From the NCBI GenBank assembly GCA_021083345.1, contig JAJGRE010000001.1:744001-808000 (forward strand): a stretch of DNA of 64,000 bases, read 5' to 3'. Position numbers and translations under genes: made by a program. How positions within the stretch are numbered: position 1 is the stretch's first letter; the number at the start of each line of letters is the position of its first letter. Shown piece by piece: positions 30,276 through 62,200 of the stretch. This stretch comes from Calditrichales bacterium MX18-03. Its GTDB lineage: Bacteria > Bacillota > Clostridia > Lutisporales > Lutisporaceae. The notes beneath the pieces were generated by a model that had not been told where the DNA came from, ran no database searches, and was given only the letters and a program-made list of their open reading frames with translations.

Positions 30276-30611
30276 GCCAGCTCCCCTCCTTTTCTTTATC
30301 ATTTTTCGGCAATTTTACCGTTTATATGATAAAACTTACCATTTGAAAAAAAGTCATCATTTTTGATTTTAGAGGGGCAATAATTTACTTGGCCGTCAGT
30401 TTTGCTTGTCCTCAAACTTGTTTGTTTACATCCTCTCTGTTTTTGATACGATATACTTTCTCCATTGTTAGCATCCTTTCTCTTTTACCCCCTTCAAGTG
30501 TCAGCAACTTAAAGGGTATTTGATTTTTGGGGGGCTTGCAATGGAGTTTTTCCATTTTATGCGTGGTTTTTTAAGTTCCGGAACGCTCGGTTTTCATTGT
30601 ACTAAAAACAA

Positions 30612-30886: not shown

Positions 30887-30960
30887 CGATATAGGCCAGC
30901 TTCCCTCCTTTTCTTTATTCTTTTTCGGCAGTTTTACCGTTTATATGATAAAACATACTG
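30877..30960 (+). repeat. SRAP 3' tail and leader repeat, copy 2
   Basis: AGCTGGTAGCGATATAGGCCAGC and the following C-rich and A+T-rich bases repeat the 3' end of the SRAP pseudogene at 30262-30340 nearly base for base, continuing into TTTTACCGTTTATATGATAAAA. No SRAP coding core is present here. Confidence 0.7.
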
Positions 30961-31051: not shown

Positions 31052-31477
31052 ATGGCTGATACATCAAAGCTACAACGTGTAACCGATTATATTCTGGCGG
31101 ACTTAAGCAACCGATTTAGTGTCGAGCTCACGCAAAGGAAAGTAAAAGTCGGCACCAACGGCATTCAGAAAAAATTCTCCGGTGTCTCAAAAGACGCAAG
31201 CATCCTGGTGCATGTCTGTCACCATAGCGGATTAACAAAGGGTGGAAATATCCCTGTTGGAAAGCTTAATGGATTGTACTCCAAGTGTTACTTGATGGAG
31301 AAGGCTCATGCCAAGAAATAGTATATCTATTTCTCGAACAAAGAGTTTTACGACATATTCAAAGAAAGCAGCATCGGAATACTGGAGGGTATCGAGCTGA
31401 GATACTTTGACGGCCTTCCCCCTTATCTTGTAGAAATACTCGCAGAAGTTCTGCAGAATGCAAGCGATGAAATGTAA
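31052..31477 (+). pseudogene. Unknown protein with in-frame TAG
   Basis: The ATG (AAGGAGG upstream) opens 89 codons ending in a TAG at 31319-31321. The same frame runs on for 51 more sensible codons (YIYFSNKEFYDIFKESSIGIL...VLQNASDEM) to TAA at 31477. The whole would be a 141-residue soluble protein with a basic N-terminal half and an acidic C-terminal half. I do not recognise the family; conserved-looking VCHHSG and YSKCYLMEKAHA may bind metal. Confidence 0.6.
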
Positions 31478-35817: not shown

Positions 35818-35935
35818 AAATTTACCGTTTATATGATAAATCATGCCGATTGTATAAAAGGCATAGCATTTCCTGTAATAAAGCTTATAATTTTATTGGA
35901 CAACCATTTTTACCTATTCTCAACCGTAAGGAGCA
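35818..35935 (+). promoter_or_regulatory. Repeated leader/promoter, second copy
   Basis: TTTACCGTTTATATGATAAA, then TTATAATTTTATTGGACAA and TAAGGAG, mirror the leader at 30935-31050 over about 115 bases. The gene it should drive is not present; an IS110 element begins about 20 bases downstream, which probably replaced it. Confidence 0.55.
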
Positions 35936-35955: not shown

Positions 35956-37395
35956 GAACTTTGAAAAAATAGATGCCAGCCCGTACAATTGAAATGTGCG
36001 AAGCCCGCAAAGTTAAGCACAAATCAAAAATACGAGGAGGCACCTAATATGAATTTTACACAGAATGATAAGATTGAGCAAATCAAAAATGAAACCTTAG
36101 TAGTCGGAGTTGATATCGGCAAGGAAACAAACTTTGCTAGAACGCTTGATTACAGAGGCAGAGAGCTCAAGAAGCTCGTTAAATTTACCAACTCGAGAGA
36201 AGGATTTAGCGCCTTTGATAAATGGGTAAACGAAGTATCTTCAGCAAATGCAAAAACGGATGTCATCGTGGGCTTTGAGCCGACAGGGCATTACTGGTTT
36301 AACTTCGGAGATCACTGTCAGCGACTTGAACACAAGCTGGCGATCGTGAATCCGATGCACGTTAAGAGGACCAAAGAGTTGGATGACAACAGTCCGACCA
36401 AGAATGACAGGAAGGATCCGAAGACAATAGCGATGCTGGTCAAAGATGGTAGATACCGGGAAGTGTACATACCGGAAGACATCTTTCAAGAGTTGAGAGA
36501 AGCCGTTTTCGAGAAGGAAAGACTTACAGATATTACGATAGCAATCAATAATCAAGTTGTACGCTGGCTAGATATCCGGTTCCCGGAGTTTACTAAAGTA
36601 TTCAGCAAATGGCACGGGCATGCAGCGCTGATGGCACTGAAGAACTTTCCGACTCCAGATAAGGTATTGAAGGCCGGAGTAGATAATATAGTATCCAAGT
36701 GGAAAGAAGAAATAACGAGGGCAGTGGGCAGAAAACACGCAGAAAAGCTTGTTAATGCAGCGAGCAAGAGTATTGGTAGGACAACAGGCTCGGTAGCTTC
36801 CGAGGTTAGCTTGAAGAACTTGATAGACCAATATGAACTGACAAAGAGACAGATAGAAGAGCAGGAAGCATTGATGCTAGAATTGCTCCTTGGAGTGCCG
36901 AATGCAGATATTCTATTGGAAATTAAGGGGATAGGGCTTAATGCAGTAGCCACCTTTGTGAGTGAGGTTGGAGATATCAACAGGTTTCAAAGCCCAAAAC
37001 AGATCATCAAACTGGCAGGGATGAACCTGAAAGAAGACAGCTCGGGTAAGCATAAAGGCAAGACCAGATTATCCAAGAGAGGGCGGAAAAGGCTTCGTCA
37101 CGCATTATTCAAAGCGATGATAACGGTCTTGGCAACTAACGCTGAGTTCAAGGCGATACATCGGAGAAACATCACCAGGGAGATTAATCCTTTGAGTAAG
37201 ATGCAATCTATATTTGCGATGTGTGGCAAACTGATCAGGATATTCTATGCGATCCTCAGCAAAGGTGTTAGTTATGATCCAAGCAAACTATTGATAGATA
37301 CCTCATCGATGAAGGCCGCTTAAGGGCTGGAGATATTCGAAGATAGCATCGACACAGCTAGGAAATCAAATGGTCATACACAGAACTTTGAAAAA
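35956..37395 (+). mobile_element. IS110-family element 1
   Basis: A complete DEDD transposase gene bounded by a 13-base direct repeat GAACTTTGAAAAA at 35956-35968 and 37383-37395. The 1.44-kb span suits the family, which has no long terminal inverted repeats. The boundaries are my inference from the repeat. The 5' non-coding part (35969-36048) is where an IS110-type bridge RNA could lie. Confidence 0.6.
36049..37323 (+). CDS. IS110-family transposase
   Basis: 424 residues from the ATG at 36049 (GAGGAGG upstream). The N-terminal DEDD RuvC-like domain opens VVGVDIGKETNFA, with VGFEPTGHYWFNF and KNDRKDPKTIAML. The C-terminal transposase_20 domain has LLEIKGIGLNAVATFVSEVGDI, with the catalytic Ser likely in the EDSSGKHKG segment. 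Appears intact. Confidence 0.93.
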   Translation: MNFTQNDKIEQIKNETLVVGVDIGKETNFARTLDYRGRELKKLVKFTNSREGFSAFDKWVNEVSSANAKTDVIVGFEPTGHYWFNFGDHCQRLEHKLAIVNPMHVKRTKELDDNSPTKNDRKDPKTIAMLVKDGRYREVYIPEDIFQELREAVFEKERLTDITIAINNQVVRWLDIRFPEFTKVFSKWHGHAALMALKNFPTPDKVLKAGVDNIVSKWKEEITRAVGRKHAEKLVNAASKSIGRTTGSVASEVSLKNLIDQYELTKRQIEEQEALMLELLLGVPNADILLEIKGIGLNAVATFVSEVGDINRFQSPKQIIKLAGMNLKEDSSGKHKGKTRLSKRGRKRLRHALFKAMITVLATNAEFKAIHRRNITREINPLSKMQSIFAMCGKLIRIFYAILSKGVSYDPSKLLIDTSSMKAA

Positions 37396-43183: not shown

Positions 43184-43334
43184 CTTTGGTAGCTGCATGC
43201 GGAACACATTAGTAATCTCAACTATTTTTTTCATACCTATCCAGTAAAGGTAAACTCTGCTAACATTATCTAGTAAAGTATTACTAATTAATATATAATA
43301 TTAATAAAAATTCCATACAATGAAAGGTGCCGAT

Positions 43335-45461
43335 ATGAACAACAGAAATGATGAATTTGAATCCTTGCAACTCAACAGCTTGAGCCTATTGAACGCTGAC
43401 AAGGATATTGAAAATATTGATATAGGAGAATTAGGATACAAATTCTCAGATGTTTTTGATCTGGGTGAGATACAGAAGATTCAGGATGAGTTCGCTGCAG
43501 CAACAGGAGTCGCATCAATCATAACGGAAGTTGACGGGACTCCGATCACCAGACCTAGTAATTTTTGCTGTTTCTGCAATGATATCGTACGGAAAACTGA
43601 AAAGGGACTGAAAAACTGCATACATTCTGATTCCATTATCGGAAGTCCCAGAAAAGACGGACCGCGCATACAAAGATGCTTAAGCGGGGGGCTTCTTGAC
43701 GGTGGCGCCAGTATCATGCTTGGAGATAGGCATATAGCCAATTGGCTGATTGGGCAAATTATTGATGATGAGTCTGATGTAGAGAAAGTATTATCCTATA
43801 CTGATGAAATCGGTGTTGAACGGAACGTAGCCAATAGCGCCCTCCAGAAGGTAACCCGCATGCCCAGGCAGCAGTTCGAGAATATTTGCAGCTTCCTATT
43901 CTTGAATGCCCGGCAGCTTTCAAGGCTGGCAGAAGAGAATATTATTCAAGCTTATGAAATCAGCAGGAGAAAAATCGCTGAACAAGAGATCAAGAAGCTA
44001 AATGAGGAACTTGAGGAAATGGTAATGACGCGAACCTGCCAGCTTGAAGAGACTAACGCGGAGCTGGAAGAAACCAACGCGATTCTGGAGGAGGAAGTTG
44101 CTGAGCGGGTGAAAGCCCAGGAGGAAATCGAAAAACTGAACTCCGAGCTTGAGACGAAGATTGTTGAACGGACCTACCAGTTTATTGAGGCAAGAATCCA
44201 GACTGAAGCAGCTAATGCAGAACTGATTAAAATCAATGATGCACTTACAAAGGAGATTGCCGAGCGAATTGAAATTGAGAATGCACTTAGGAAATCCAAG
44301 TTTGAAGCAGAGCAAGCAAACATTGCAAAGAGCAAATTCCTAGCCAATATGAGCCATGAGATCAGAACTCCAATGAATGGAATCATCGGTATGACAGAAC
44401 TGGCCCTTTTGACGGAATTAGACTCAATACAAAGGGAATACCTTTCGGTTGTCAAGTCATCAAGCAAATCGCTATTAAGGGTATTGAACGATGTTTTGGA
44501 TTATTCGAAAATTGATGCAGGCAAGGTTGATCTGGTGGTAGCACCTTTTGATATCCGAGAGGTCACCCAAGAAGTAATAACTTTGTTTGATGTAGCCGCT
44601 AGACAAAAGAATCTGTACATCGAAATGAGTATAGATGAGAGGATTCCAAAGTTGATTCTAGGTGATTCAGTCAGGTTGAGACAGGTGCTTTCTAATCTAG
44701 TAGGCAACGGTGTCAAGTTTACTTTATCTGGAGGCATAAAGATCAATATTTTTATATCTGCCTTGCTTGAAGATAGCCTGGAACTGAAGTTTGTCGTTTC
44801 AGACACAGGCATAGGAATTGCCGAGGATCAGTTGGACAAGCTTTTTAAAAGGTTTAGCCGGGTCGATGATTCAAATAACAGGCTCTTTGGAGGTACAGGT
44901 CTCGGGCTTGCCATTTCAGAAAAATTAGTTGAAATGATGGGTGGAAAGATCGGAGTTGTGAGCAAGGAATCTGTAGGAAGCGACTTCTACTTTACAGCAT
45001 GTTTTAGACTTCGGGAAGCAATTGATCCATTGAACCAAAAAAATATTCCTTCCCTGTCACCGTTTGAAGCAAAAAAGACAGCTGATAAAAAGGTGCTTCT
45101 GGTAGAAGATGACAAAGTTTCCAGTACCCTCGCAGTTATAATACTACGGAGAATGGGTCTCCAAGTTATTGCTGCAGGAAATGGGAAAGAAGCGATAGAC
45201 GCATATCGGAAAGAGAAATTCGACCTGATCCTCATGGACATTAACATGCCTTACATGGATGGCTACTCAGCAACTTCTGTTATAAGATTAAGTGAGCAAA
45301 ATCTGGGACTGGGATCTCATACTCCGATTATTGCAATGACCGCTTACGCACTTTCCGGAGATAAAGAAAAATGTCTGGAAGCCGGTATGGATGACTACAT
45401 TACAAAGCCTATCGATATTTCCGAGCTTGAAGGAAAAGTTGAAAAATGGATTAACCGCTGA
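43335..45461 (+). CDS. Hybrid sensor histidine kinase with PocR sensory domain
   Basis: 708 residues from the ATG at 43335, with AAAGGTG five bases upstream; an earlier ATG at 43320 lacks a site. Residues 35-200 are a PocR ligand-binding domain (YKFSDVFDLGEIQKIQDEFA; Cys-rich FCCFCNDIV and LKNCIHSDS). A long coiled coil follows (about 205-330), then HisKA (FLANMSHEIRTPMNG), HATPase (GTGLGLAISEKL) and a C-terminal receiver with the Asp in LILMDINMPYMDG. A soluble sensor; PocR domains often bind small hydrocarbon compounds. No partner regulator is adjacent, so output may be the attached receiver. Confidence 0.92.
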   Translation: MNNRNDEFESLQLNSLSLLNADKDIENIDIGELGYKFSDVFDLGEIQKIQDEFAAATGVASIITEVDGTPITRPSNFCCFCNDIVRKTEKGLKNCIHSDSIIGSPRKDGPRIQRCLSGGLLDGGASIMLGDRHIANWLIGQIIDDESDVEKVLSYTDEIGVERNVANSALQKVTRMPRQQFENICSFLFLNARQLSRLAEENIIQAYEISRRKIAEQEIKKLNEELEEMVMTRTCQLEETNAELEETNAILEEEVAERVKAQEEIEKLNSELETKIVERTYQFIEARIQTEAANAELIKINDALTKEIAERIEIENALRKSKFEAEQANIAKSKFLANMSHEIRTPMNGIIGMTELALLTELDSIQREYLSVVKSSSKSLLRVLNDVLDYSKIDAGKVDLVVAPFDIREVTQEVITLFDVAARQKNLYIEMSIDERIPKLILGDSVRLRQVLSNLVGNGVKFTLSGGIKINIFISALLEDSLELKFVVSDTGIGIAEDQLDKLFKRFSRVDDSNNRLFGGTGLGLAISEKLVEMMGGKIGVVSKESVGSDFYFTACFRLREAIDPLNQKNIPSLSPFEAKKTADKKVLLVEDDKVSSTLAVIILRRMGLQVIAAGNGKEAIDAYRKEKFDLILMDINMPYMDGYSATSVIRLSEQNLGLGSHTPIIAMTAYALSGDKEKCLEAGMDDYITKPIDISELEGKVEKWINR

Positions 45462-46429: not shown

Positions 46430-46751
46430 TTCTATTAAACTAATTTTAGTATCCGGTGATTTTTTTGTCAAACTTTGGAACTTACATTATTTTCTATTTT
46501 GTGCGTAGCCTTTTATCTGTGCTGTATTTTGCCTGCCGAATGTTAACGATTCAAGCTAAATTGTCAAATTGCGGCGTATGAGGATGCTCTTTTCCGGAAA
46601 ACCTGTCAATGCCCATTATATGAACTGCTCGAATTTCCATCTATTCTGCAGAATTTTATTAAATCGTGTCAAATAGAAGATTTTCTATATCATTTATCAG
46701 CACAAGAAATCGCATTAAATGTTAATATTTTCCGTTTATTCTATGGGAAAG
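46430..46751. other. A+T-rich gap without recognised features
   Basis: About 320 bases between a hypothetical gene and the pro-peptide terminator. I see no gene, tRNA or clear hairpin in it. Confidence 0.6.
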
Positions 46752-46774
46752 AAAAAAGGAGCCGTTGCCCCTTT
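46752..46774 (-). terminator. Terminator of the receptor/pro-peptide operon
   Basis: On the minus strand AAAGGGGC-AACG-GCTCCTTT has one G-T pair and is followed by six T residues, 25 bases after the pro-peptide stop. Confidence 0.8.
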
Positions 46775-46799
46775 CTCATACCCTATTTACTTGAAAAAT

Positions 46800-46937
46800 C
46801 TACTTGGAAGTTTCAACGCCTGTTCCCGGTGTCACAATGATCACATGGGGATCAGTATGATCTCCTGCAAAAACAGCTGTGCTGGCCGAGAACATCAGAA
46901 CCACTGCTAAAAGAATTGCAAACCCAACCTTCTTCAT
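46800..46937 (-). CDS. Secreted pro-peptide, probable quorum-sensing signal precursor
   Basis: 45 codons with AAGGAGGTGAAAAA directly before the ATG. The product has a perfect Sec signal: MKKVGFAILLAVVLMFSAST then AVFA, the cleavage site. The remaining 21-residue tail starts GDHTDPHVIIVTPG. Its ATG overlaps the stop of the upstream HTH-TPR gene by 4 bases (ATGA). This is the arrangement of Phr/NprX/PapR-type signals, which are exported, trimmed and re-imported to bind the TPR receptor. The mature peptide is most likely 5-10 residues within the tail, but which part cannot be told. Confidence 0.8.
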   Translation of the reverse strand: MKKVGFAILLAVVLMFSASTAVFAGDHTDPHVIIVTPGTGVETSK

Positions 46938-48217
46938 TTTTTCACCTCCTTCATGCTCAAGGCATGATCAAAAGTAATATCGTAATAGATGGATTTCAAG
47001 CTTTTGATGTACTCTTCCTGTTCACCTGAATTGATGGCTGTGGTGACCAGCTCATTTATCAATCCGGTCAGGTCCATTATCAACTCACTCTCTTTTTCAC
47101 TCTGTGATTCCAGGAAGTCGGCTATGAGCTTAATGCTAGAAAATATGAAGCTTTTCTCGCTTATCAGGAATTGATATTCACGCACCAGCGCTATGAGTGC
47201 CCTTATCGCTTCTCTCGGCTGCTTCCGCAGGATCTGGATGCTTGTATATGTTTCATAAAATTTGATGAGGTCAATGAACCGGTTCCCGTCACACAATAAT
47301 ATTGCCTTATCAATGTATTCAAGCGCCGTGTCAACCTCACCTTTTACCCTGTACAGCTCCGCAATATTGTTATACAGAATCGACTTTGAACGCCTGTTTT
47401 CCTCCGAGGTTGCGGCCAACCCCTCTTTATAAAACTTTATAGCCTCATCATACCGCTTCATTTTCTTGTATGCTACGCCTATGTTGTTTATGGCACTGCA
47501 ATAATCGTACTCGCAAGTTGCTGCTTGCTTTGCCTGCAGCAGGTGTTCTATGGCAGACTCATACTGTCGCATCTCTATGCAGACAAAGCCCAGCCGGTAG
47601 TACAACAGATGCAGTGTTTGCGGATCCAACCCATAAGCTCTGGGCAAAAGCTTAATTGCGTCGCTCAGGCTGTTGTATGCGAGGCTGAAGTTCAGATTGA
47701 AATACAGGTACAGCCCCTGCTGCGACAGATATTTTGCAAGGTACTTTTTATTGTCGATGCCTGATGCAATTTGTACTGCTTGTCCAATCTGCTCCAGTGC
47801 TGATGCTATTTTTTTCTGGCTATTGTAATAAATGCTGAAAAGGTAATGAGCGTCTGCCAGCCCTGTAGCGTAGCCTGAAGACGTACACAGCCTAATCAAT
47901 TTTGTGAATACACCCGCATCGTTTATCTGGTCAAATTCTGTAATGTGCTTGCAGGTCTCATCCAGATAATGCTTCAACTGATCTGCTTCCGACAGGCACA
48001 GTTCTCTATAGTCTTTTTCGAAACAAATGAAAATCAAACCCTTCAGCCGCTCCGGAAATTCCTCCAGACTTTTAACGGATTTGTACCGTTCTATGGTCCG
48101 AAGTGATCTTCCCGTTTCCGCTGCAAAAGCCTCTAGACTGCCGTATTTCTTAATTATTGCATTCTCTACCTGCTTGCCAGGTGTCAGTAATGCTATATTA
48201 TACACATTGTACTTCAT
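46934..48217 (-). CDS. RRNPP-type HTH-TPR peptide receptor
   Basis: 427 residues. An N-terminal helix-turn-helix (about 17-60: IIKKYGSLEAFAAETGRSLRTIERYKSV) is followed by at least six tetratricopeptide-like helical pairs, e.g. YRLGFVCIEMRQYESAIEHLLQA, CSAINNIGVAYKKMKRYDEA and YNNIAELYRVKGEVDTALEYIDKA. This is the architecture of PlcR/NprR/AimR-type regulators that switch DNA binding on meeting a signal peptide. The partner gene overlaps its 3' end. Targets are unknown; autoregulation and the neighbouring Bro-N antirepressor are candidates. Confidence 0.88.
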   Translation of the reverse strand: MKYNVYNIALLTPGKQVENAIIKKYGSLEAFAAETGRSLRTIERYKSVKSLEEFPERLKGLIFICFEKDYRELCLSEADQLKHYLDETCKHITEFDQINDAGVFTKLIRLCTSSGYATGLADAHYLFSIYYNSQKKIASALEQIGQAVQIASGIDNKKYLAKYLSQQGLYLYFNLNFSLAYNSLSDAIKLLPRAYGLDPQTLHLLYYRLGFVCIEMRQYESAIEHLLQAKQAATCEYDYCSAINNIGVAYKKMKRYDEAIKFYKEGLAATSEENRRSKSILYNNIAELYRVKGEVDTALEYIDKAILLCDGNRFIDLIKFYETYTSIQILRKQPREAIRALIALVREYQFLISEKSFIFSSIKLIADFLESQSEKESELIMDLTGLINELVTTAINSGEQEEYIKSLKSIYYDITFDHALSMKEVKK

Positions 48218-48373
48218 CTAACACACACGCCCCCTTGATAATACTATTATAAGTAATTCAGGGGGGCGGCTCTATGGGTTTTATATGAATGGTAGGATTT
48301 TGTATATGAATGGTAGGGTTAGTGGGATTTAGGGCAGCTTAAGTCGTACTATCTTGAATATGGTTAACATTCT

Positions 48374-49547: not shown

Positions 49548-49574
49548 TGTTTCACCTCCCTAATCTATTTGTCT

Positions 49575-49651
49575 CTTTAACGGACTATATGTACATAATA
49601 GTCCGTTAAAGCGTCATTGTCAATATTATTCTTTCATTTTTGTCCGTTAAA
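49575..49651. promoter_or_regulatory. GTCCGTTAAA operator palindrome
   Basis: CTTTAACGGACTA (49575-49587), an 11-base spacer, and TAGTCCGTTAAAG (49599-49611) are a perfect 13+13 inverted repeat between divergent XRE genes. A third half-site GTCCGTTAAA is at 49642-49651, just ahead of the plus-strand gene. Confidence 0.8.
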
Positions 49652-49679
49652 TAATACAATTTTTGTTGAGGTGTTATGT

Positions 49680-50090
49680 ATGACATTTGGACAAAGATTA
49701 AAAAAACTTAGAAAAGACAAAGGCTTGAGCCAAGAGCAATTGGCACTAATGCTTAAAAAAAGCAGATCTACTGTTGCGGGATATGAAACCGATGATCGAT
49801 ATCCGGAGTTTTTTTCATTGATTGAAATTGCTAACCTTTTCAAGGTTTCGTCTGATTACTTGCTTGGATTGAGCGACAATCCATATTGTAATGTGGAACA
49901 ATCACAACTCGAAAAAAATACGAATTCTGAAATAGAGCAATTGCTTTCAGAAGCTCAGAATACTCTTCAAAATAGCATCAATCTCACCCTTGCCGGCAAC
50001 CCGGCCTCTCCTGAAGCTGTCCAAAGCATCATCGACGGCATCAAATTCGGGCTGGAACAAGCAAAATTGCGCAATGTAAAAAGACAATAA
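49680..50090 (+). CDS. XRE-family regulator (ImmR-like), copy A
   Basis: 136 residues from the ATG at 49680 with GAGGTG upstream. HTH 1-65 (FGQRLKKLRKDKGLSQEQLALMLKKSRSTVAGYETDDRYPEFF, YLLGLSD), then a helical tail. It is followed 39 bases later by an ImmA/IrrE-type protease, the usual partner that cleaves ImmR. Start extended upstream by the frame but unsupported. Confidence 0.87.
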   Translation: MTFGQRLKKLRKDKGLSQEQLALMLKKSRSTVAGYETDDRYPEFFSLIEIANLFKVSSDYLLGLSDNPYCNVEQSQLEKNTNSEIEQLLSEAQNTLQNSINLTLAGNPASPEAVQSIIDGIKFGLEQAKLRNVKRQ

Positions 50091-50129
50091 TGTTAGTCAA
50101 TGATACATAGCCATCATACAGTAGGGCTG

Positions 50130-50459
50130 ATGCTTACTTTTTTAGAATCACCACTTGTAAGGGCATTGCTTTCCGAATCCATATCATTCCATGAAATTAT
50201 GAATACCTTTGATATAAAGACTTCTATTGCATTCAATCTTAGCAGCAACATTTACGGCTTTGTATATGCCAGTAGGAAAGGCAAGTATCATATCGTTTTA
50301 AACGGAAATCTCAGCTTTGAAACTCAATGCCAGACTTTCGCTCATGAGCTAAAACACATTGTGACGGATATGCCGGAAATAGGCTATTTCATTGGGCTGG
50401 ACATGCAGGGAGAGGATTTTGAGGTTCAGGCGAATAAAACCATATTATTAAAAAGATAA
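50130..50459 (+). CDS. ImmA/IrrE-type metallopeptidase, copy A
   Basis: 109 residues. Zinc site HELKH at 72-76 with a downstream acidic region EDFEVQAN for the third ligand; the usual E-x-x-A-N spacing is kept (copy B has QADE). It is short for the family (usually 140 or more), so it is a minimal or C-terminally trimmed form. Nearly identical over 95 residues to the gene at 55356, except at the C-terminus. The start at 50130 is chosen by that comparison. Confidence 0.8.
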   Translation: MLTFLESPLVRALLSESISFHEIMNTFDIKTSIAFNLSSNIYGFVYASRKGKYHIVLNGNLSFETQCQTFAHELKHIVTDMPEIGYFIGLDMQGEDFEVQANKTILLKR

Positions 50460-52747: not shown

Positions 52748-53836
52748 CTATTTCAGCAGTGCCATTTTGTCGGCTATGACTTCTTCAAAGTCGGTTTCCT
52801 TCCTGCGCAAATACCTTGCGCCCTGGGACTTTATCATCCTGAGTATTTCGTCTATGTCGGTCAGTTCTGCCCTGGCGGCAAACGAGGTAATATTCCCTAT
52901 TGTACCAGGGATAAGAGCATAGGCCGAAGATTCCAGCTGTTTCTCTCTCTTTATCAGTTCTTTACTCTGGAAGTCTGCAAATGCTTCCTGTAGGCTTTGC
53001 CATACCGGGTCTATGGTGCAGCGGGTTAACCTGGTTCTGTCTAGCTGCCGTTTGGTCAGCCAGGTCTTTGTGCAGTATTCCCATAGGGTTTTTAAACTCC
53101 CCAGGGCTTCTTCTACAGTCTCTATCTTGACTTCTTTCATAAAGCTTCTATTCAATTCAAATTCTACGTTCCAGACCTTTTCCGGGTTCAGTCCTGCATT
53201 CTGCCATAGCTCCATAAACCATAGCTTTTGCCGTTTCTGTTTCACTTCCAAGGTCTTGTCGTAGATTCTACAGAGGATTTTGCCTGTGGAGCCTGAGCCG
53301 AAGTATACATTGCAGATTTTCCGCTTGTAGCGATAGAAGTTGTCCAAATGGAATTTACCCTCAAAGGTGTCGATATCCTCTGCGTTTATCTCTATCTCGT
53401 CGGTATGGCAGCATAGGTCTATTCGGTTTATCTTGTTGGCCTTGATATCGCCAATATTTGCAGTTATCCATTCTGTTACGGTGTTCCAGGCTTTCTCTAC
53501 CCCCATGCTCCAGAGGACTTCTGACTTTAACCGGATGTAGATAGGGTAAAAGCTTTCTTTTCTGGAACGGTGCTGGGCTATCTTGACTTCATAGGCATCA
53601 TTATGGAGTATGTAGGCATAGCCTCTTGAACCGTTGGGAAGGATTTCAAAGGACTGGCTGCCTATGGTGATGATATGGGTTTGGTTCATTCCTTGTGTTT
53701 GTTGCTCTTTGGCGTTACATTTTTCCTGTTCTAGTTTTATGAGTAGGTCTGCTGATCGGTTCTGCTTCAGGTCAGCGAAGCCATAGTTATATATATCAAT
53801 TGTTGCGCAGAGCGTGTCTATGTTTGGGATTTTCAT
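52748..53836 (-). CDS. Replication initiation protein (Rep_trans family)
   Basis: 362 residues. Features of rolling-circle initiators such as Tn916 Orf20 and phage RstA: ILPNGSRGYAYILHN, KINRIDLCCHTDEIEI, VYFGSGSTGKILCRIYDKTLEVK and WNVEFELNRSFMKEV. The Tyr in RIYDKT is a candidate nicking residue. A strong hairpin stands upstream, next to a tiny membrane gene, as in replicating integrative elements. The 3' end abuts IS110 but the length is normal. Confidence 0.82.
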   Translation of the reverse strand: MKIPNIDTLCATIDIYNYGFADLKQNRSADLLIKLEQEKCNAKEQQTQGMNQTHIITIGSQSFEILPNGSRGYAYILHNDAYEVKIAQHRSRKESFYPIYIRLKSEVLWSMGVEKAWNTVTEWITANIGDIKANKINRIDLCCHTDEIEINAEDIDTFEGKFHLDNFYRYKRKICNVYFGSGSTGKILCRIYDKTLEVKQKRQKLWFMELWQNAGLNPEKVWNVEFELNRSFMKEVKIETVEEALGSLKTLWEYCTKTWLTKRQLDRTRLTRCTIDPVWQSLQEAFADFQSKELIKREKQLESSAYALIPGTIGNITSFAARAELTDIDEILRMIKSQGARYLRRKETDFEEVIADKMALLK

Positions 53837-54871: not shown

Positions 54872-54954
54872 TGTCAATATTTAACACAACTTTTTGATGC
54901 AAATATTTTTCTTTTGCTACACTTTGTGGTATTATTTCATTGAGGTGTATTTTT

Positions 54955-55344
54955 ATGACGTTTGGTGAGCGAATCACACAGTTAAGAAAAGAAAAGGCTA
55001 TGACCCAGGATGAATTGGCTAAAGACCTTAATATTACTAGAGGTTCTTTGTCTATGTATGAAACTGATAAACGATTTCCAGACAAAGATACTCTAAAGCT
55101 ATTTGCTAATTACTTTTGCGTATCAGCCGATTACTTACTTGGCATTACGGATATACGTACCCCTGCTGACAGGATTACAGAAGCTCTTGGAACCGATCAA
55201 GAATTGCTGAAGTTCTGGGAGGAAACAAAAGACAGGGATAATGTCCAGTTGCTTTTTAAGCAAATTCGGCATTTATCGGACAAAGATATAAACCAGGTTA
55301 TCAGAATTATTAAGGCTATCGAGGATGAAGAAGCTAACGAATAA
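54955..55344 (+). CDS. XRE-family regulator (ImmR-like), copy B
   Basis: 129 residues from the ATG at 54955 with GAGGTG upstream. HTH 1-65 (FGERITQLRKEKAMTQDELAKDLNITRGSLSMYETDKRFPDKDTL, YLLGITD), then a helical tail ending IRIIKAIEDEE. Followed 11 bases later by ImmA copy B. Probably represses the Rep module through the TGCAACA sites. Confidence 0.88.
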   Translation: MTFGERITQLRKEKAMTQDELAKDLNITRGSLSMYETDKRFPDKDTLKLFANYFCVSADYLLGITDIRTPADRITEALGTDQELLKFWEETKDRDNVQLLFKQIRHLSDKDINQVIRIIKAIEDEEANE

Positions 55345-55355
55345 GGGAGGGGCTG

Positions 55356-55676
55356 ATGCTTACTTTTTTAGAATCACCACTTGTAAAAGCATTGCTTTCC
55401 GAATCCATATCATTCCACGAAATTATGAATGCCTTCGATATCAAGACTTCTATCGCATTCAATCTTAGCAGCAACACTTACGGCTTTGTATACGCCAGCA
55501 GGAAAGGCAAATACCATATCGTTTTAAACGGGAATCTCAGTTTTGAAACTCAATGCCGGACTTTCGCACATGAACTAAAGCACATTATATCCGACATGCC
55601 AAAAATAGGCTATTTTATCGGAGTGGACATGCAGCGGGAGTATTTTGAGGTTCAAGCAGATGAAATAATGGTATAA
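55356..55676 (+). CDS. ImmA/IrrE-type metallopeptidase, copy B
   Basis: 106 residues; GGGAGGGG just upstream. Zinc site HELKH and EVQADE. About nine in ten residues match copy A at 50130, unlike their partner XRE proteins, which differ strongly. The likely task is cleaving the adjacent repressor on induction. Also shorter than the family's norm. Confidence 0.82.
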   Translation: MLTFLESPLVKALLSESISFHEIMNAFDIKTSIAFNLSSNTYGFVYASRKGKYHIVLNGNLSFETQCRTFAHELKHIISDMPKIGYFIGVDMQREYFEVQADEIMV

Positions 55677-55777: not shown

Positions 55778-56290
55778 TCATTTTTCTTCGTAAAAGTACC
55801 AGTTAGCCTCAGTTAAAGGCTCTAATATAGTTATCAACTCATTTTTAGGTCGTTCCCCATTGATTGAATATACAACACCACGACCATAGTCTCTGTTAGA
55901 CCATCTCTGGAAATATATCCCATTTTGCTCTTTTGTTATAACACTATATTTATATTTTTCAAACAAATCAACAATACTTGTAGCAATAAAATCATCAGAT
56001 ATTTGAACAAATTTTCCTACTTCCATAGTATCGGTAGAAACAAACATTTCTCCTCTTTTATCAGTTGATGTTATATGCACACTAGAATATTCTTGCTTCT
56101 CCAAATACATTGCGATTTTTTGCAAGATATCTTTATGTTTCAGAAACTCATTTTTCATATTGTTTTTCGAGATTGGTGCTGGAAACAATACATTGATCCA
56201 TATTATGGATACAACTATTGCTATACAGATTATGCTTATTACAACAACTATGGGAATATTTAAGCTAATAAATTTTTTTGTCATACTCAT
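55778..56290 (-). CDS. Membrane-anchored protein, candidate immunity to the RHS toxin
   Basis: 170 residues. N-terminal membrane helix (about 13-36: IPIVVVISIICIAIVVSIIWI) then an outward soluble domain. Its ATG overlaps the RHS stop by 4 bases (ATGA), the typical immunity position. No known immunity family recognised; a membrane-anchored, outward-facing domain would suit neutralising a toxin at the cell surface. Confidence 0.6.
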   Translation of the reverse strand: MSMTKKFISLNIPIVVVISIICIAIVVSIIWINVLFPAPISKNNMKNEFLKHKDILQKIAMYLEKQEYSSVHITSTDKRGEMFVSTDTMEVGKFVQISDDFIATSIVDLFEKYKYSVITKEQNGIYFQRWSNRDYGRGVVYSINGERPKNELITILEPLTEANWYFYEEK

Positions 56291-59200
56291 TTCCCTTTCT
56301 TTTTATACCATTCAATTCCTTTTCTAATCGCATTATGATCATTGAATTCATTGGTTCGCTCATCTTTGTCTTTAATTATATCCCCAATTCCTGCTGCATA
56401 CATTGAGCCTGCTATCAATACAGATTCTGGTATTTTTGCTGCTGTTCCAGTATATCCATACATGATATTCCCGAGTTCTTCTGGTGTAGTTAAACTCCCA
56501 TATACGACAATTGTAGTATCATGACTTCCAGGAAATGGGGTTCCAACAGTTTTCTCCCAAGGCTCTTCTCTTTTTATGTCCCAATCAGCTTTGTGATCCA
56601 CCATTGATTTAAACCATAGTAAATCTAGCTTATGCTTCGAAGCTTCAACCCCTGCACTATAAAATACCGTATTAATCGGTTCCGAATAGTCATAATACTG
56701 TTTTCCGTCTATTGTAACAATCTTTACTCCAGCTTTTTTCATATCATCAGTAAGAGTAAGATTACCCGCCCCCTCGTAATAACTATAACTACCAAGAGGT
56801 TTGCCGCTATTAAAGTTTTTGTTATATCCATAGTTCCATACTACATCGCTGCGTCTATCTGCTAGTGCAACCTGTACACCTTGTACTGGAGTAGCGTTAA
56901 AATCATTTGAAGCTTTACGTCCATCAATATTTGGCCTTGGTATTTGGATTACATTTCGAGTAAATTCGTTGAATAATCCTTCTGTCAAATAATTATTACC
57001 ACTTAGTGCTGCACCAATTATTAATCTCTGATAGATTTCTTCCCTACTGCTATTACCGTCGCTATCTCTATCGCTATCTCTATTACCGCTTTGTCTATAT
57101 CTATTTTGCAGCATTCTCTCTATTTCAGCAATTCTTCCACTATATAAATCCTTTTCTGCTTGTGTCCTTGCACTATCTCTTGATTGGGTCTGGGCAACAA
57201 GTTTCTCTGCAAGAGATTGTGTACTCTCTTTCCCAGATACTTGATCTTTAACTTGTTGTTTGCCTAAATCATATGCCGAATGTCCTGTTGGGTCTATATA
57301 CATAATCGGTTCATTATGGCAATAGGTGTAAAGGTTCAAGCTCAATGGATCAGCCGCACTTCCCCTATACGTATCCTCAGTCAAGAACCGTGCAATCTTA
57401 GGATCATAGTACCGTGCATTGAGGTAATATATTTCCGTCTCTCCGTCCCATTGATACCCTGCATATCTAATGGGGTTTTCCTTATACTCCGGCTTGTTCC
57501 TCTCCGTGTCACTGTCCTGCGGGTTGCCAAACGCATCATAATAGTACTGTACGGCTACTGTTCCATCCGGTTTTACCAACGCAGTAACGTCACCGTGACC
57601 ATTGTACATATAGTAATACTTTTCAGCACCGGCTACTCTCATGAGCAAATTGGTTCCATAGATGTTCCTTGCTGTCTCGTTCCCTTGTCTGTCCACCTCC
57701 AGGACTACTTTATCTGCCTCATAGAGATATCTGGTGATTTCATCGTTAACGCTCTTCTCAGCCCGATAGCCTTCCCCGTTGTACCGGTACAAGACAGTCT
57801 TGTCCCCCTCAATGGTCTTCACCATCTGGTTCCAGACATCGTACTTCATAAAGGTGACTTCCTTTGTGGTCGTCATACCTGCCCTATTTAACCTATAATC
57901 CGGATATAGTCCGGAATCAGCCGGTCTTATCGTTTCCTTTACCTTAACAAGTGTGTTTCCGTTGTTGTCATATTCATACTGTACTTTCTCTGTAATAGCA
58001 CCGACTGTGGTTTGTGTTCCCGTCAAACGGTTCTGCTCGTTATAGGTATAGGTCGTTGAATAGCTGCTGCTTCCTGCACTGACGATCTCGTGTGTCCTGT
58101 TTCCTGCCTTGTCGAAAAGGTAGGTTGTTATCTTCCCGCCCGGCTCGGTTATCTTGCTAAGCCTGTTCAGGCTGTCATAGTCATAATCTGTGACGCCTTT
58201 GCTGTCGGTCTTAGTGTTCTGGTTGTGAGCGGCATCATAGGTGTAGCTGTAGGCGTCGATCACCGTTCCGCCTGCTTTGGTATTCGTTAATGTCTTTATC
58301 AGTCCATCCGCATAGTAGGTGTATACTTCCTTAGAGCCGCCGGGATAGGTGACCATTTCCCTGCTGCCGTTATCGTAGTAGTCATAGGCGGTTGCATTGG
58401 TGCCTTCTTGTACCTTTACCAGCCTGCCGGCCTTGTCATATACCTTCTTCGTGACATTTCCTTTGGGATCTGTGGCGGTTTCCCCGTGGCAGCCCTCTGC
58501 TTCTGTTTCCAGTATATCATATTCGAAGGTGGTTGTACCAATTTCCGGTACTTCCTTTGTCAGCACCCGGTTCTCCTCATCATAGGTTCTGATCGTCATT
58601 CCCGTACCGTCGGTCATGGTCAGCTGGTTGCCATTGCCGTCATAGGTATAGGAGATGGATTCCGTCCCGATCACCTGGCTTACAAGCCGGCCATGTACGT
58701 CGTAGGTGTAGATTGTCGTTTTTTCGTTCCTGTCCTTCCTGGTCTTGAGGCTGCCATCAGGATAGTAGGTGTAGCTTTCCATCTTGGAATCGATGTAGGT
58801 GTAGTCCCCCTCTATTCCGGTCCTGCCGCCGTGGTCCAGCTTTCTGGCAGGCTTGTTGGCTGCATTGTATTCATAGGTGGTGGTATGCCCTTCTGCATCG
58901 GTCTGGGTCAGCATATTGCCGTTTGCGTCATAGGTATAGCGTGTGTTCTCTCCCTTGGCATTGGTTACCGATACCAAGCGGTTGAACTCATCGTAATTGT
59001 AGACGGTCGTTTGTCCGATACCGTCGGATTTGGATTGGATATTCCCCAGGTCGTCATAGGTCTGGGTCGTTTTATGCTCCAACGGATCTATTGTCGTTGT
59101 CAGCCTTCCGTTCCGGTCATAGATGAATTGTGTCATATGATTCAATGCATCGTATGACTTGGTCTGGAGACTTCCAGAGTTGTACTCCAGCTTTTGCACC

Positions 59201-62200
59201 GTCACGTATGGGTCTTTTTTCTCAATCAGCCTGTTCAGCGGATCGTAGATGTTGGTATATATATTACCTTTCCAATCGGTTACCGTGGTCTGGTTGCCGT
59301 TATCATCATAATCAAAGACAGTGGCCTTCAGTTGTCCGCTTACCGTCATTCTGGTCTCGACAAGCCGGTTCAGTTCATTGTATTCATTCTCTTTTGTTTT
59401 GCCATTGCCATCCGTCTCATACCGTTTGTTTCCGTTCTTGTCGTATTTGACGGAATGCGTAATGGATTCCGTTCCGTCCTGTTTCTCCTCGGTAGAAGTC
59501 AAAACCCTGCCCTGGTTGTCGTATGTATATTTGTTGACCTTGCCTGTGGAATCTTTCTTGTAGGCCAGGTTACCCATTTCATCGTACTGGAACCGTGCTT
59601 CGATGCCTTCTATAGTAGCATCCCCCGGGAAGGTCACTTTTCGCTGTTTGCCCAGCCTGTTGTATTCATAATCCGCCGTATTGCCATTTGCATCGGTTTC
59701 GGTCAGCATTCTGCCGGCCTTGTCATATGTATAGCCCTTCAGCGGCTTTTCTGCTGCATTTGCATTTTTCTTTAGCGATACCGAGGTGATATTTCCGGCA
59801 TCATCCATTGTATAAAGGGTTATGACGCCTTTTGCATTGGTTTCCCTTGTTTTTCTTCCCAATGCGTCATATTCATACCTGGCTGTATAAGGGAGGCCCC
59901 TCTGTTCCGAATCCGGATCGGTGACGGTTATGAGGTTGCCTGCCAAGTCATAGGTATAGCGCTTACCATATCCCGTAGCAATCCTTTCACTCAGCGTGTC
60001 ACCCTTCCCAGCTTCATAGCCAAGGGCATCCATCTCTTTTGTAACCCTTCCGTTGTTATCATACCGGTAGGTCCTGGTATAGAGTGTCACCCACTGCTCT
60101 GTCTTGGGGTCTATATAGATGTCCTTCTTGGCAGTAAGCTGATCCATGACATCGTAGACATACTCGATCCTATTCAATTCGTTCAGGTTTTTTGCCAGAT
60201 CATAGTACTTGGGTGCCACTTCCAATATTTTTCTGTCTGCCCTGTCATATTCATATGCGGTTACTTTGTTCTTTGCATCTGTTACTTTAATGAGGTTGCC
60301 TTTCTGACTGTATTCATAGCGGGTTGTATTACCCATGGCATCGGTTCTGGTCAAGGGCTCCCCTTCCCAGTTGTAGCTTACGGTGCTTGTTATGGTAACG
60401 GCAGCACCTTCCTCATCCACTCCGGGCTGACTCATGCCGGTTTGTCTGTTCAGTTTATCATAGTCGTATTCTGTCGTTATCTTGTCCGGTGTGGTCATGG
60501 TTTCCAAATTGCCGTTCTTATCATAGGTAAAGGCGGTCAAAAGTATCCTGTCCGTTGTGCTGCCGAAGGTATAACCATAGATGTCCCCTTCTTCGACATG
60601 CAGCTTTTTCTCAGTCGGTTTTCCAAGGTGGTTATTGGTGTACTCTGTTGTAATTATTTCATTGGTATCGGTATAGACGTCTTCTCCTGAAAGGTTTCCG
60701 TCGTCATCATACCGGTATTCCGTTTTCCTGCCCTCCCTGTCCTCTACCGACTTAACTAATCCGTCCTTGTAGTAGGTGTAGTTGTTTTCTACGTAGTAGG
60801 ATGGGGTGGCATACAGTACGACCTTATCCCTGCCCGTCTTTTCCACTCTCTTATTGCCATTGTTATAATATTCCAGCTTTGTATAACGGTACAGAACCTG
60901 TCCTTTGGATATTTCCACCGGTATCCACTGCTCTGATAGCCGGTTCAGACTGTCGTACTTGTAGTAACTGATGCTGCCATCCTTTGAGACGGTATTTTTT
61001 ACTGTTCCGTCCAGGTCATAGACCGTTTTCTCCCGTGTTCCGTCGGGATAGTGCTTTTCCACCAGTCTTCCGGCATAGTCATAAATGCTTACGGTAATAG
61101 CTTGCTCCGTTTCATTCAGATGGTTGATTTCTGTCTCCTGCGTCTTTCCATCTTCCATAATGGCATAGGAATATTCCTGCAAAATCACCTCGGAAGCCGC
61201 ATCACTGTCCCTGAAATACACCTTCTTCAGCCTGTCCATGACGTCGTACTCATACCGCAAGATGGATCCGTTGGGCCTTGTCTCTGTCAAGGTATTGCCA
61301 TACACATCATAAGTATAGGATCTTGTATACCCTTCCGGATCTGTTACCGTTCTCAGCTTGCCGCTCTCATAATACTCATAATGGTAGCCTACGGTATTAT
61401 CCGTGTAGGTATGGTTTGCCAAATCATCCATTAACGTATTATATTGCTTCGGCTGTACCTCCTGTACCTTCCTGCCGACCTTGTCGTATTCAATTCTCGC
61501 AATCTCCCATTTGGTTTCCACATCTTGCTTATTGTTAATTGTCTTCTCCAAAAGACCATTCTTATCATAAATATAGTCTGTCTCGTACAATTCAGGCGAT
61601 ATGGCTTTTGTCTTTAATCCCAAACGATTGTATTCATAGGTGGTCCTCTTTTGCTCCGGATTTATCTCGGTCCTGATATTGCCGTCTGCATCATATTCAT
61701 ATACGGTTTCATACCCTTCCGGATCTGTAATGCTTTTCAACAATCCCTTTGCATTGGTATGAAACTTACCCATTGCATCCACATCTGAATAATACTGATA
61801 GCTGGTAATAGCAAACTTTTCCCTTTTTGATTCCTCGGTGAGGCTCTCCGAATAACGCTCATTGTCGTTGTAAGGCTGCAATTTCTCTCTAAGAAGTCTC
61901 TTATTATCATCATATACATAGAAAGTGTATTTTCCCATTTCATCTTTTTCTTCACGAAGATTATTCCTGTCATCATAAACATATGATTTGAAGCTGGGGG
62001 CAGGGTTTATTACATTGGTAATAGTCCCTTGCGCATTAATTGAATATTGAACCTTATTCCCATTTTTATCAATCGGGTTTATGATCTTGGTTACATTTCC
62101 CCTCCCATCAATTTCATACTCGGTCAGGTTCCCATTTCTATCCGCAATGTACTTGATGTCTCCATATTTGTTTTTTCCATGGTCATCATGATATACGGTA

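Follow-up and report, generated by a model that had tools for sequence, protein, structure and literature searches.

A probable RRNPP-type receptor-propeptide pair in a clostridial genome and the putative Agr-type boxes of its promoter

In RRNPP systems as outlined in PMC10075063, a receptor of 250 to 500 aa with TPRs is encoded near a propeptide gene (at -60 to +400 bp), the product of which has 10 to 100 aa and a Sec/SPI signal and the start of which is preceded by a strong ribosome site; an N-terminal HTH is optional in the receptor, and 34 published RRNPP_detector clusters are given in the same outline. Several described systems come close to the pair reported here. In the Rap/Phr systems of Bacillus, as portrayed in PMC3601957 and PMC11343458, a TPR receptor gene is followed by an overlapping propeptide gene, the receptor lacks an HTH, and the Phr pheromone is usually C-terminal. 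A C-terminal position is typical of the known RRNPP pheromones, with internal exceptions, in the accounts of PMC11343458 and PMC9765709. The AimR/AimP arbitrium systems and Paenibacillaceae subfamily 08, too, have HTH-TPR receptors, and their peptides are described as carrying a "DPG" motif (PMC12700828). In the Qsr/Qsp and QssR/QssP systems of solventogenic Clostridium, an HTH-TPR receptor gene precedes a small secreted precursor gene, with several pairs per genome (by the descriptions in PMC7376267 and PMC7206700), and the Qsp precursors of Clostridium acetobutylicum are described as having leucine, proline, and tryptophan in common in their C-terminal region. Finally, the Alo systems of Paenibacillus polymyxa form large paralogous sets, exceeding 25 pairs in certain genomes, with the receptor gene ahead of the peptide gene; the pheromone of AloP13 is given there as the C-terminal SHGRGG (PMC7425212).

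Here, we describe a pair from a 64,000-nucleotide stretch of a clostridial genome (the window). The genome itself is referred to as G000, and G002, G004, G008, and G009 are relatives with members of the same receptor family. With a probability that we put at roughly 0.7, the locus is an RRNPP-type unit of a clostridial subfamily, organized as an Agr-type-driven operon and encoding a pheromone at the N-terminus of the propeptide tail.

The receptor-propeptide pair and its relatives

The pair and the structure that follows it consist of these features:

46934..48217, minus strand: receptor gene, 427 aa, ATG start (open reading frame and translation)
46800..46937, minus strand: propeptide gene, 45 aa, ATG start (open reading frame and translation)
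46934..46937, minus strand: ATGA overlap of the receptor stop and the propeptide start (from the sequence)
46944..46952, minus strand: propeptide ribosome site AAGGAGGTG, within the last receptor codons (by eye)
~46749..46777, minus strand: terminator-like hairpin with a T-run, directly 3' of the propeptide gene (fold)

The original prediction held that the receptor gene overlaps a 45-codon ORF by 4 bases, and the coordinates confirm this to the base (ATGA). The ribosome site that had been called ideal is indeed there, with 6 nt between AAGGAGGTG and the ATG of the propeptide gene, and so is the signal peptide with its AVFA cleavage site, as judged by eye and with a home-made rule: a lysine-rich start and a hydrophobic core make up the N-terminus, and a cut between AVFA and G divides the propeptide into the signal peptide MKKVGFAILLAVVLMFSASTAVFA and the tail GDHTDPHVIIVTPGTGVETSK. 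The terminator claimed to follow the small ORF stood only in part. A hairpin with a T-run does occur at that position, and the region from 46800 to 46745 folds at -15.9 kcal/mol, but with a z of -1.9 (10 of 200 shuffles were equally good), and the hairpin at ~46777-46749 is absent from the list produced by a mechanical terminator scan, which is why we call it terminator-like. Set beside the RRNPP signature, the receptor (427 aa, TPRs), the gene gap (-4 bp), and the propeptide (45 aa, AAGGAGGTG, and a signal peptide by the home-made rule) all agree with it.

Receptor ORFs of this family, fragments included, numbered 41, with three in G000, two in G002, one in G008, two in G009, and 33 in G004, so that most pairs come from one genome. 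Seven of them (3' end cut or less than 150 nt behind) were left out. Behind 28 of the 34 testable homologues, a signal-peptide ORF with a ribosome site was found, versus behind 1 of 258 other open frames of at least 200 codons in the same loci, a control set that comprises all such frames, genes or not. On the upstream side of the receptors no signal-peptide ORF was seen (0/34), and one was seen in antisense (1/34). Conservation of the small ORF next to receptor homologues, on which the original prediction hinged, is thus what we observed. A second, tandem propeptide gene was present in six G004 loci, and the six receptors without a signal-peptide ORF were those of L103, L107, L093, L066 (G008), and L076 (G000), together with one of the tandem receptors of L094. 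At L076, on contig 8 of G000, the receptor is followed by a 39-codon ORF (region L076:6583-6702, corresponding to L002:1181-1300), the start of which is amphipathic rather than hydrophobic and does not form a proper signal peptide; its tail, IEDIEPYDVLK, is possibly a degenerate form of the core described below. In the 4.7-Mb genome of G004, the approximately 33 receptor ORFs are spread over loci L082 to L112, with two in tandem at L094; the ORF at L028 is broken by a TAG.

Within the window's family, which here equals its order, at least one member was found in 5 of 22 genomes, and the two other receptors of G000 lie on other contigs than the window pair. Of 391 genomes from the class, 5 matched the family model at E ≤ 1e-30, as did 1 of 398 from the phylum (G000 itself); since these were drawn samples and at most four candidates were scored per genome, the counts do not prove absence elsewhere, and the family appears, at this threshold and among the sampled genomes, only in the window's own order. 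Collections of assembled contigs and viral contigs were scanned with a three-row receptor alignment. Among 11 loci from the assembled contigs, family members were present only in L065 (uncultured Clostridia bacterium) and L066 (Clostridia bacterium, Go_SlDig_bin_83), which are the G009 and G008 genes, respectively; the other nine were TPR proteins of cyanobacteria, Bacteroidota-type, or related genomes. No relatives were matched in phage records and none were confirmed in the viral contigs with that three-row query, and seven plasmid matches, covering just 17 to 33% of the receptor, were discarded as generic cyanobacterial TPR proteins. Beside the receptors themselves, no neighbor gene recurred at most loci (three to four neighbors on each side, clusters of at least two listed). 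The contig 8 receptor of G000, however, shares its two downstream neighbors with G002 and G008 and an upstream one with G002, from which we conclude that this locus is old and chromosomal.

Receptor fold, propeptide tails, and predicted pheromone

The TPR part of the window receptor was readily detected (Pfam TPR_1, E 2.9e-15, with further TPR families above the cutoff), and for 22 receptors of the family, Pfam returned TPRs and no HTH family among the best 25 of 37 families listed. An AlphaFold2 model based on 22 homologues (mean pLDDT 91.9, pTM 0.82) contains five short helices at about residues 13 to 73, followed by a long helical repeat (TPR superhelix, 77 to 426). The N-terminal segment, at about residues 13 to 73, is predicted from this model to be an XRE-like HTH. 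Folded alone, it reached a pLDDT of 79.6, and its best structural matches were XRE repressors, i.e., ImmR (Z 7.5, 2.7 Å, 65 residues), DdrO (Z 7.2), and SinR (Z 6.9), all below the level at which Z is telling; in a Foldseek search, every E was above 0.5. The TPR part matched the eukaryotic protein LGN best (Z 26.0, 4.8 Å, 340 residues), followed by RapI (Z 22.7, 4.5 Å, 319 residues) and apo NprR (Z 22.6, 6.3 Å, 330 residues); with LGN at the top and a fold this common, the fold alone cannot settle the family. Asn245 and Asn283 are nearly or fully invariant among the 22 receptors, and in a one-sequence search with the family model, YHNLG of the pLS20 Rap aligned to YNNIA at 282 to 286; the correspondence to Asn227 of RapF, the conserved peptide-binding asparagine, is assumed from position. 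Four receptors (L066, L077, L078, and L079), namely, both of G002, the only one of G008, and one of G000, have no HTH region, their match to the family model starting at positions 47 to 64. L078 and L066 still begin with the ~20 N-terminal residues of the HTH form, joined to the TPR part in a way that resembles a clean deletion of the HTH.

A conserved core of 5 to 10 residues had been proposed as a check on the pair, and such a core was found. The motif [DE]x(1-3)[DNETG]P, picked after inspection of the tails, occurs within the first 10 residues in 29 of 33 tails, compared with a mean of 2.1 and a maximum of 8 in 1,000 rounds of shuffled tails; two propeptides were excluded from this set, that of L083, in which the rule gave no cleavage site (one of 34 propeptides), and the truncated one of L101. 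The consensus, x-D-x-[ST]-D-P-x-G, lies immediately behind the signal-peptidase site, and by manual count, the proline is residue 6 after that site in 29 of 33 tails. Together, the conservation of the small ORF and the shared tail core back the claim of an RRNPP-type receptor with a secreted propeptide, and we are highly confident that the window pair is of this kind.

In G002, two propeptides contain the core twice (VDDVGL...VDDVGL and VHDTTPD...VHDTDPD), with the first copy directly behind the signal-peptidase site and the second at the extreme C-terminus, from which it follows that the pheromone is likely 6 to 7 residues long and normally positioned at the tail's N-terminus. For the window, we predict a pheromone of about GDHTDPH, and a location of the pheromone at the N-terminus of the propeptide tail is, in our view, quite probable for the family. 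The 22 pairs used for a comparison of receptors and peptides (receptor match starting by position 5 and reaching position 390; first propeptide per receptor; cleavage site by rule required) have 22 distinct 9-residue cores. Similarity among receptors correlated with similarity among cores (Mantel r 0.38, 13/5,000) less strongly than with similarity among signal peptides (r 0.55, 0/5,000) and therefore reflects shared descent and does not demonstrate matched specificity.

How does this family relate to the systems introduced above? The gene order and overlap are those of Rap/Phr, and the pLS20 Rap does align to the family model, but the window receptor has an extra N-terminal domain and hence does not correspond to Rap as a TPR protein without a DNA-binding domain, a description that the four sister receptors without that domain do fit. 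The DPxG of our consensus recalls the "DPG" of AimP and subfamily 08 as described; unlike AimR, however, the window receptor has no AimR match in NCBIfam (the curated model NF038310 was not among its matches at E ≤ 0.05), and no phage relatives of it were found. Similar in organization are the clostridial Qsr/Qsp and QssR/QssP pairs, likewise found as several pairs per genome. As far as Qsp is described, however, its conserved part is C-terminal, whereas xDx[ST]DPxG is at the N-terminus of the tail here, and GDHTDPHVIIVTPGTGVETSK contains neither Leu nor Trp. The Alo systems resemble the G004 set in the number of paralogues, but AloP13, as reported, differs in both code and place of the peptide. 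The assertion that receptor and peptide match no known family is consistent with these comparisons as far as tested, i.e., against the AimR model and the described features of Qsp. On the basis of a literature search, the receptor subfamily is apparently undescribed, its separation from Qsr/QssR being drawn from published descriptions. In the mostly open-access literature covered, we found no description of an xDx[ST]DPxG peptide code.

The double-box promoter and alternative readings

The region ahead of the window receptor contains a direct repeat of 21-bp units, 15 bases of which are identical, in the following arrangement:

48306..48314, minus strand: distal 9-bp box ACCATTCAT (sequence)
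48285..48293, minus strand: proximal 9-bp box ACCATTCAT, 21 bp from the distal box (sequence)
48246..48251, minus strand: TATAAT (-10), 33 bp past the proximal box, without a recognizable good -35 hexamer
48228..48268, minus strand: inverted repeat around the -10, arms 48228-48238 and 48258-48268, the 3' arm holding the receptor ribosome site

In a 15-bp exact-repeat search of G000, only the window pair came up without mismatch (9 matches versus 16 for the control), and a direct-repeat scan requiring 13 of 14 matches also singled out only the window (1/39; shuffles, 8/780). The operator was therefore recognized just via comparison of paralogues, with its degenerate form in the other five receptors first spotted by eye and then scored. 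This comparison yielded the box RCMRTTYRT, occurring twice at a spacing of 21 bp, with a -10 hexamer 31 to 33 bp further on. Because the layout (box-12-box-31/33-TATAAT) was derived from the six receptors in G000 (three), G002 (two), and G008 (one), and the score was thus built on sequences that it ranks, the controls rather than the six constitute the test. All six receptors scored 4 to 6; of the other upstream regions in the same loci, 69 of 70 scored -1 or less (the exception being a box site at 35824), and in G004 and G009, none of the 33 regions ahead of receptors, counted after two with less than 200 nt upstream had been left out, scored above 1.

Across the whole G000 genome, the double box with at most one mismatch gave nine matches, compared with four for the reversed pattern; the only two without mismatch are both promoters of RRNPP receptors, and a -10-like hexamer at 32 to 33 bp accompanies six of the nine. 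Summed over ten relatives, the double box alone was not enriched (32 matches versus 33 for the reversed control). Further double boxes of G000 are located at window positions 30317, 30936, and 35824, and another is found on contig 7 (1165580), where it precedes an M78-like gene. The site at 30936 precedes a gene for an 89-aa protein (31052-31321) without a Pfam match, and that at 35824 precedes a transposase-like gene (36049-37323, labeled by eye) that seems to be an insertion downstream of a copy of the same leader. A single box, GCAGTTCATATA, is found at 46617-46628 (minus strand), 170 bp behind the propeptide gene, with no -10 at the usual distance.

The arrangement of the boxes points to a regulator of the LytTR type. 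As described in PMC2766830, LytTR sites consist of 9-bp repeats separated by 12 bp, and the AgrA and SilA promoters carry two such direct repeats centered near -60 (PMC4227749, PMC2766830). The window's ACCATTCAT-12-ACCATTCAT has this 9-12-9 format, and its center would be near -60 as well if transcription starts ~6 bp after the -10; unlike in those promoters, the target here is an RRNPP receptor-pheromone operon. The layout is also found, at the full score of 6, upstream of agrB of G000. That agr locus (L139:4732-7584, on contig 8) encodes AgrB (E 6e-37), a GHKL kinase, and a LytTR response regulator (L139:6811-7584), the latter two on the strand opposite agrB, and contains an AgrD-like frame identified by eye. 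AgrB turned up in both G000 and G002 but in neither G004 nor G009, a distribution that matches that of the boxes and counts in favor of a link to Agr; in G008, where the boxes are present, AgrB was not found in a genome that is 80% complete. Promoters of other agrB genes gave mixed results, with a good fit in G018 (score 4), a poor one in G002 (score 1), and no such box site at the three agrB genes of G021. Because G000 encodes five LytTR proteins, a regulator other than the agr-linked one is also conceivable. Overall, the sequence evidence moderately favors control of receptor-propeptide transcription by an Agr-type LytTR regulator. We found no report of an Agr-driven RRNPP receptor-pheromone operon in the mostly open-access literature, and the nearest precedent for such wiring is the control of rapA and rapC in Bacillus by the quorum-sensing response regulator ComA (according to PMC4797271), which is not a LytTR regulator.

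It could be argued that the RRNPP pair is real but that the double box is the receptor's own operator, used for self-activation of the PlcR or ComR type. The window receptor does have a predicted HTH, and tandem repeats before a promoter without a -35 are typical of autoactivation. However, the N-terminal HTH region is missing from four of the six receptors with the layout, so that the receptors can hardly be the general box binder; moreover, agrB has the layout too, the 9-12-9 spacing is the published LytTR format (PMC2766830, as described there), and the 33 upstream regions of HTH-bearing or fragmentary receptors in G004 and G009 are without it. Autoregulation of this kind is therefore an unlikely reading of the boxes. 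Even less weight can be given to the suggestion that the product of the small ORF is an exported antimicrobial, or an effector of another kind, with no pheromone role, the TPR protein being its regulator or immunity partner. While re-import of the peptide and its binding by the receptor are predictions, and two tandem peptide genes occur at six loci, a short conserved core at the cleavage site that differs in each of 22 pairs and the lack of recurrent maturation or transport genes beside the pairs, among the same three to four neighbors on each side, make this very improbable. That the window pair is a decayed remnant with an untranslated small ORF is scarcely credible: translation of the ORF is a prediction from sequence, but the perfect ribosome site, the intact frames, the core, and the boxes have all been retained.

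The original prediction placed the pair beside a Bro-N gene and an XRE switch, neighbors that profile matches confirm to be real, and suggested that it may control the adjacent element. RapI-PhrI times the excision of ICEBs1, and by analogy the pair might belong to the phage- or ICE-like element next to it (Bro-N, XRE switch, ImmR/ImmA-like pairs, and a replication protein) and time its excision. The pair lies 157 bp downstream of Bro-N on the same strand, genes for XRE and M78-type protease proteins are 1.1 to 2 kb away, and the best match of the HTH model is the ICEBs1 repressor ImmR, although tied with other XRE domains. Against this, the pair is preceded by a promoter of its own carrying Agr-type boxes, the other receptors of G000 lie on other contigs (one of them keeping its downstream neighbors in two other species), and no receptor relatives were found in the phage records or viral contigs scanned. 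In addition, the inverted repeat around the -10 folds well (48290-48205, -25.6 kcal/mol, z -3.75; none of 200 shuffles was as good); as RNA starting from the local -10 lacks the 5' arm, the receptor ribosome site would be masked only in read-through RNA, and the hairpin would thus keep receptor synthesis independent of read-through from Bro-N. On these grounds, control of the element is not supported, and we regard membership in it as improbable.

The surroundings have several features of their own. Two XRE and M78-type protease gene pairs, which we take to be ImmR/ImmA-like in order, are located at 49617-50459 and 54940-55676, and their second genes are 89% identical over 300 nt. Palindromic operator-like repeats (TTTAACGGACTAT) lie at 49570-49651, between two divergent XRE genes. 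A 362-aa protein encoded at 52748-53836 (minus strand) matches a phage replication-initiation PHROG (phrog_20614, E 6.7e-8) and no Pfam family, and a frame of 2,553 aa at 56287-63948 (minus strand) begins, by eye, like a subtilase and contains long repeats of the YD/RHS type. A hybrid histidine kinase with a PocR sensory domain is encoded downstream of the pair on the opposite strand (43320-45461, plus); the contig 9 receptor of G000 also has a hybrid-type kinase downstream (by eye).

Proposed working and meaning

Returning to the preferred reading, that of an Agr-type-driven RRNPP unit, we propose the following course of events. An Agr-type LytTR response regulator would bind the two 9-bp boxes and activate the -35-poor promoter, giving one mRNA for receptor and propeptide, the translation of which is probably coupled at the ATGA. 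The propeptide would be exported by Sec, and signal peptidase, cutting between AVFA and GDH, would directly create the N-terminus of the pheromone, after which another protease may trim the tail to a peptide of 6 to 8 residues on the scaffold x-D-x-[ST]-D-P. As in the RRNPP family generally, an oligopeptide permease would then re-import the peptide, which would bind in the TPR groove and presumably alter the action of the N-terminal HTH at nonadjacent target genes. For the HTH-bearing window receptor, regulation of genes is the simplest assumption; the sister receptors without an HTH probably have a Rap-like mode of action with a protein as target, and a response regulator in that role would be in line with Rap.

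More tentatively, and at rather long odds for the scheme as a whole, these parts might form a two-layer circuit in which the Agr LytTR regulator arms several RRNPP operons that serve as private peptide channels, the receptors without an HTH feed back on the LytTR regulator as Rap does on ComA, and the pheromones constitute a combinatorial code, with xDx[ST]DP fixed and the N-terminus set by signal peptidase, amounting to ~33 channels in one relative.

The approximately 30 parallel pairs in one genome provide a natural set of peptide-receptor channels, and the propeptides suggest that, unlike for the usual C-terminal pheromone, signal peptidase generates the N-terminus of the signal without the help of another enzyme. 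Agr and RRNPP are the two main types of peptide quorum sensing in clostridia, and their cooperation is named as an open question in PMC7206700. The DNA analyzed here suggests a direct link from Agr to RRNPP, by which one cell-to-cell conversation may start another.
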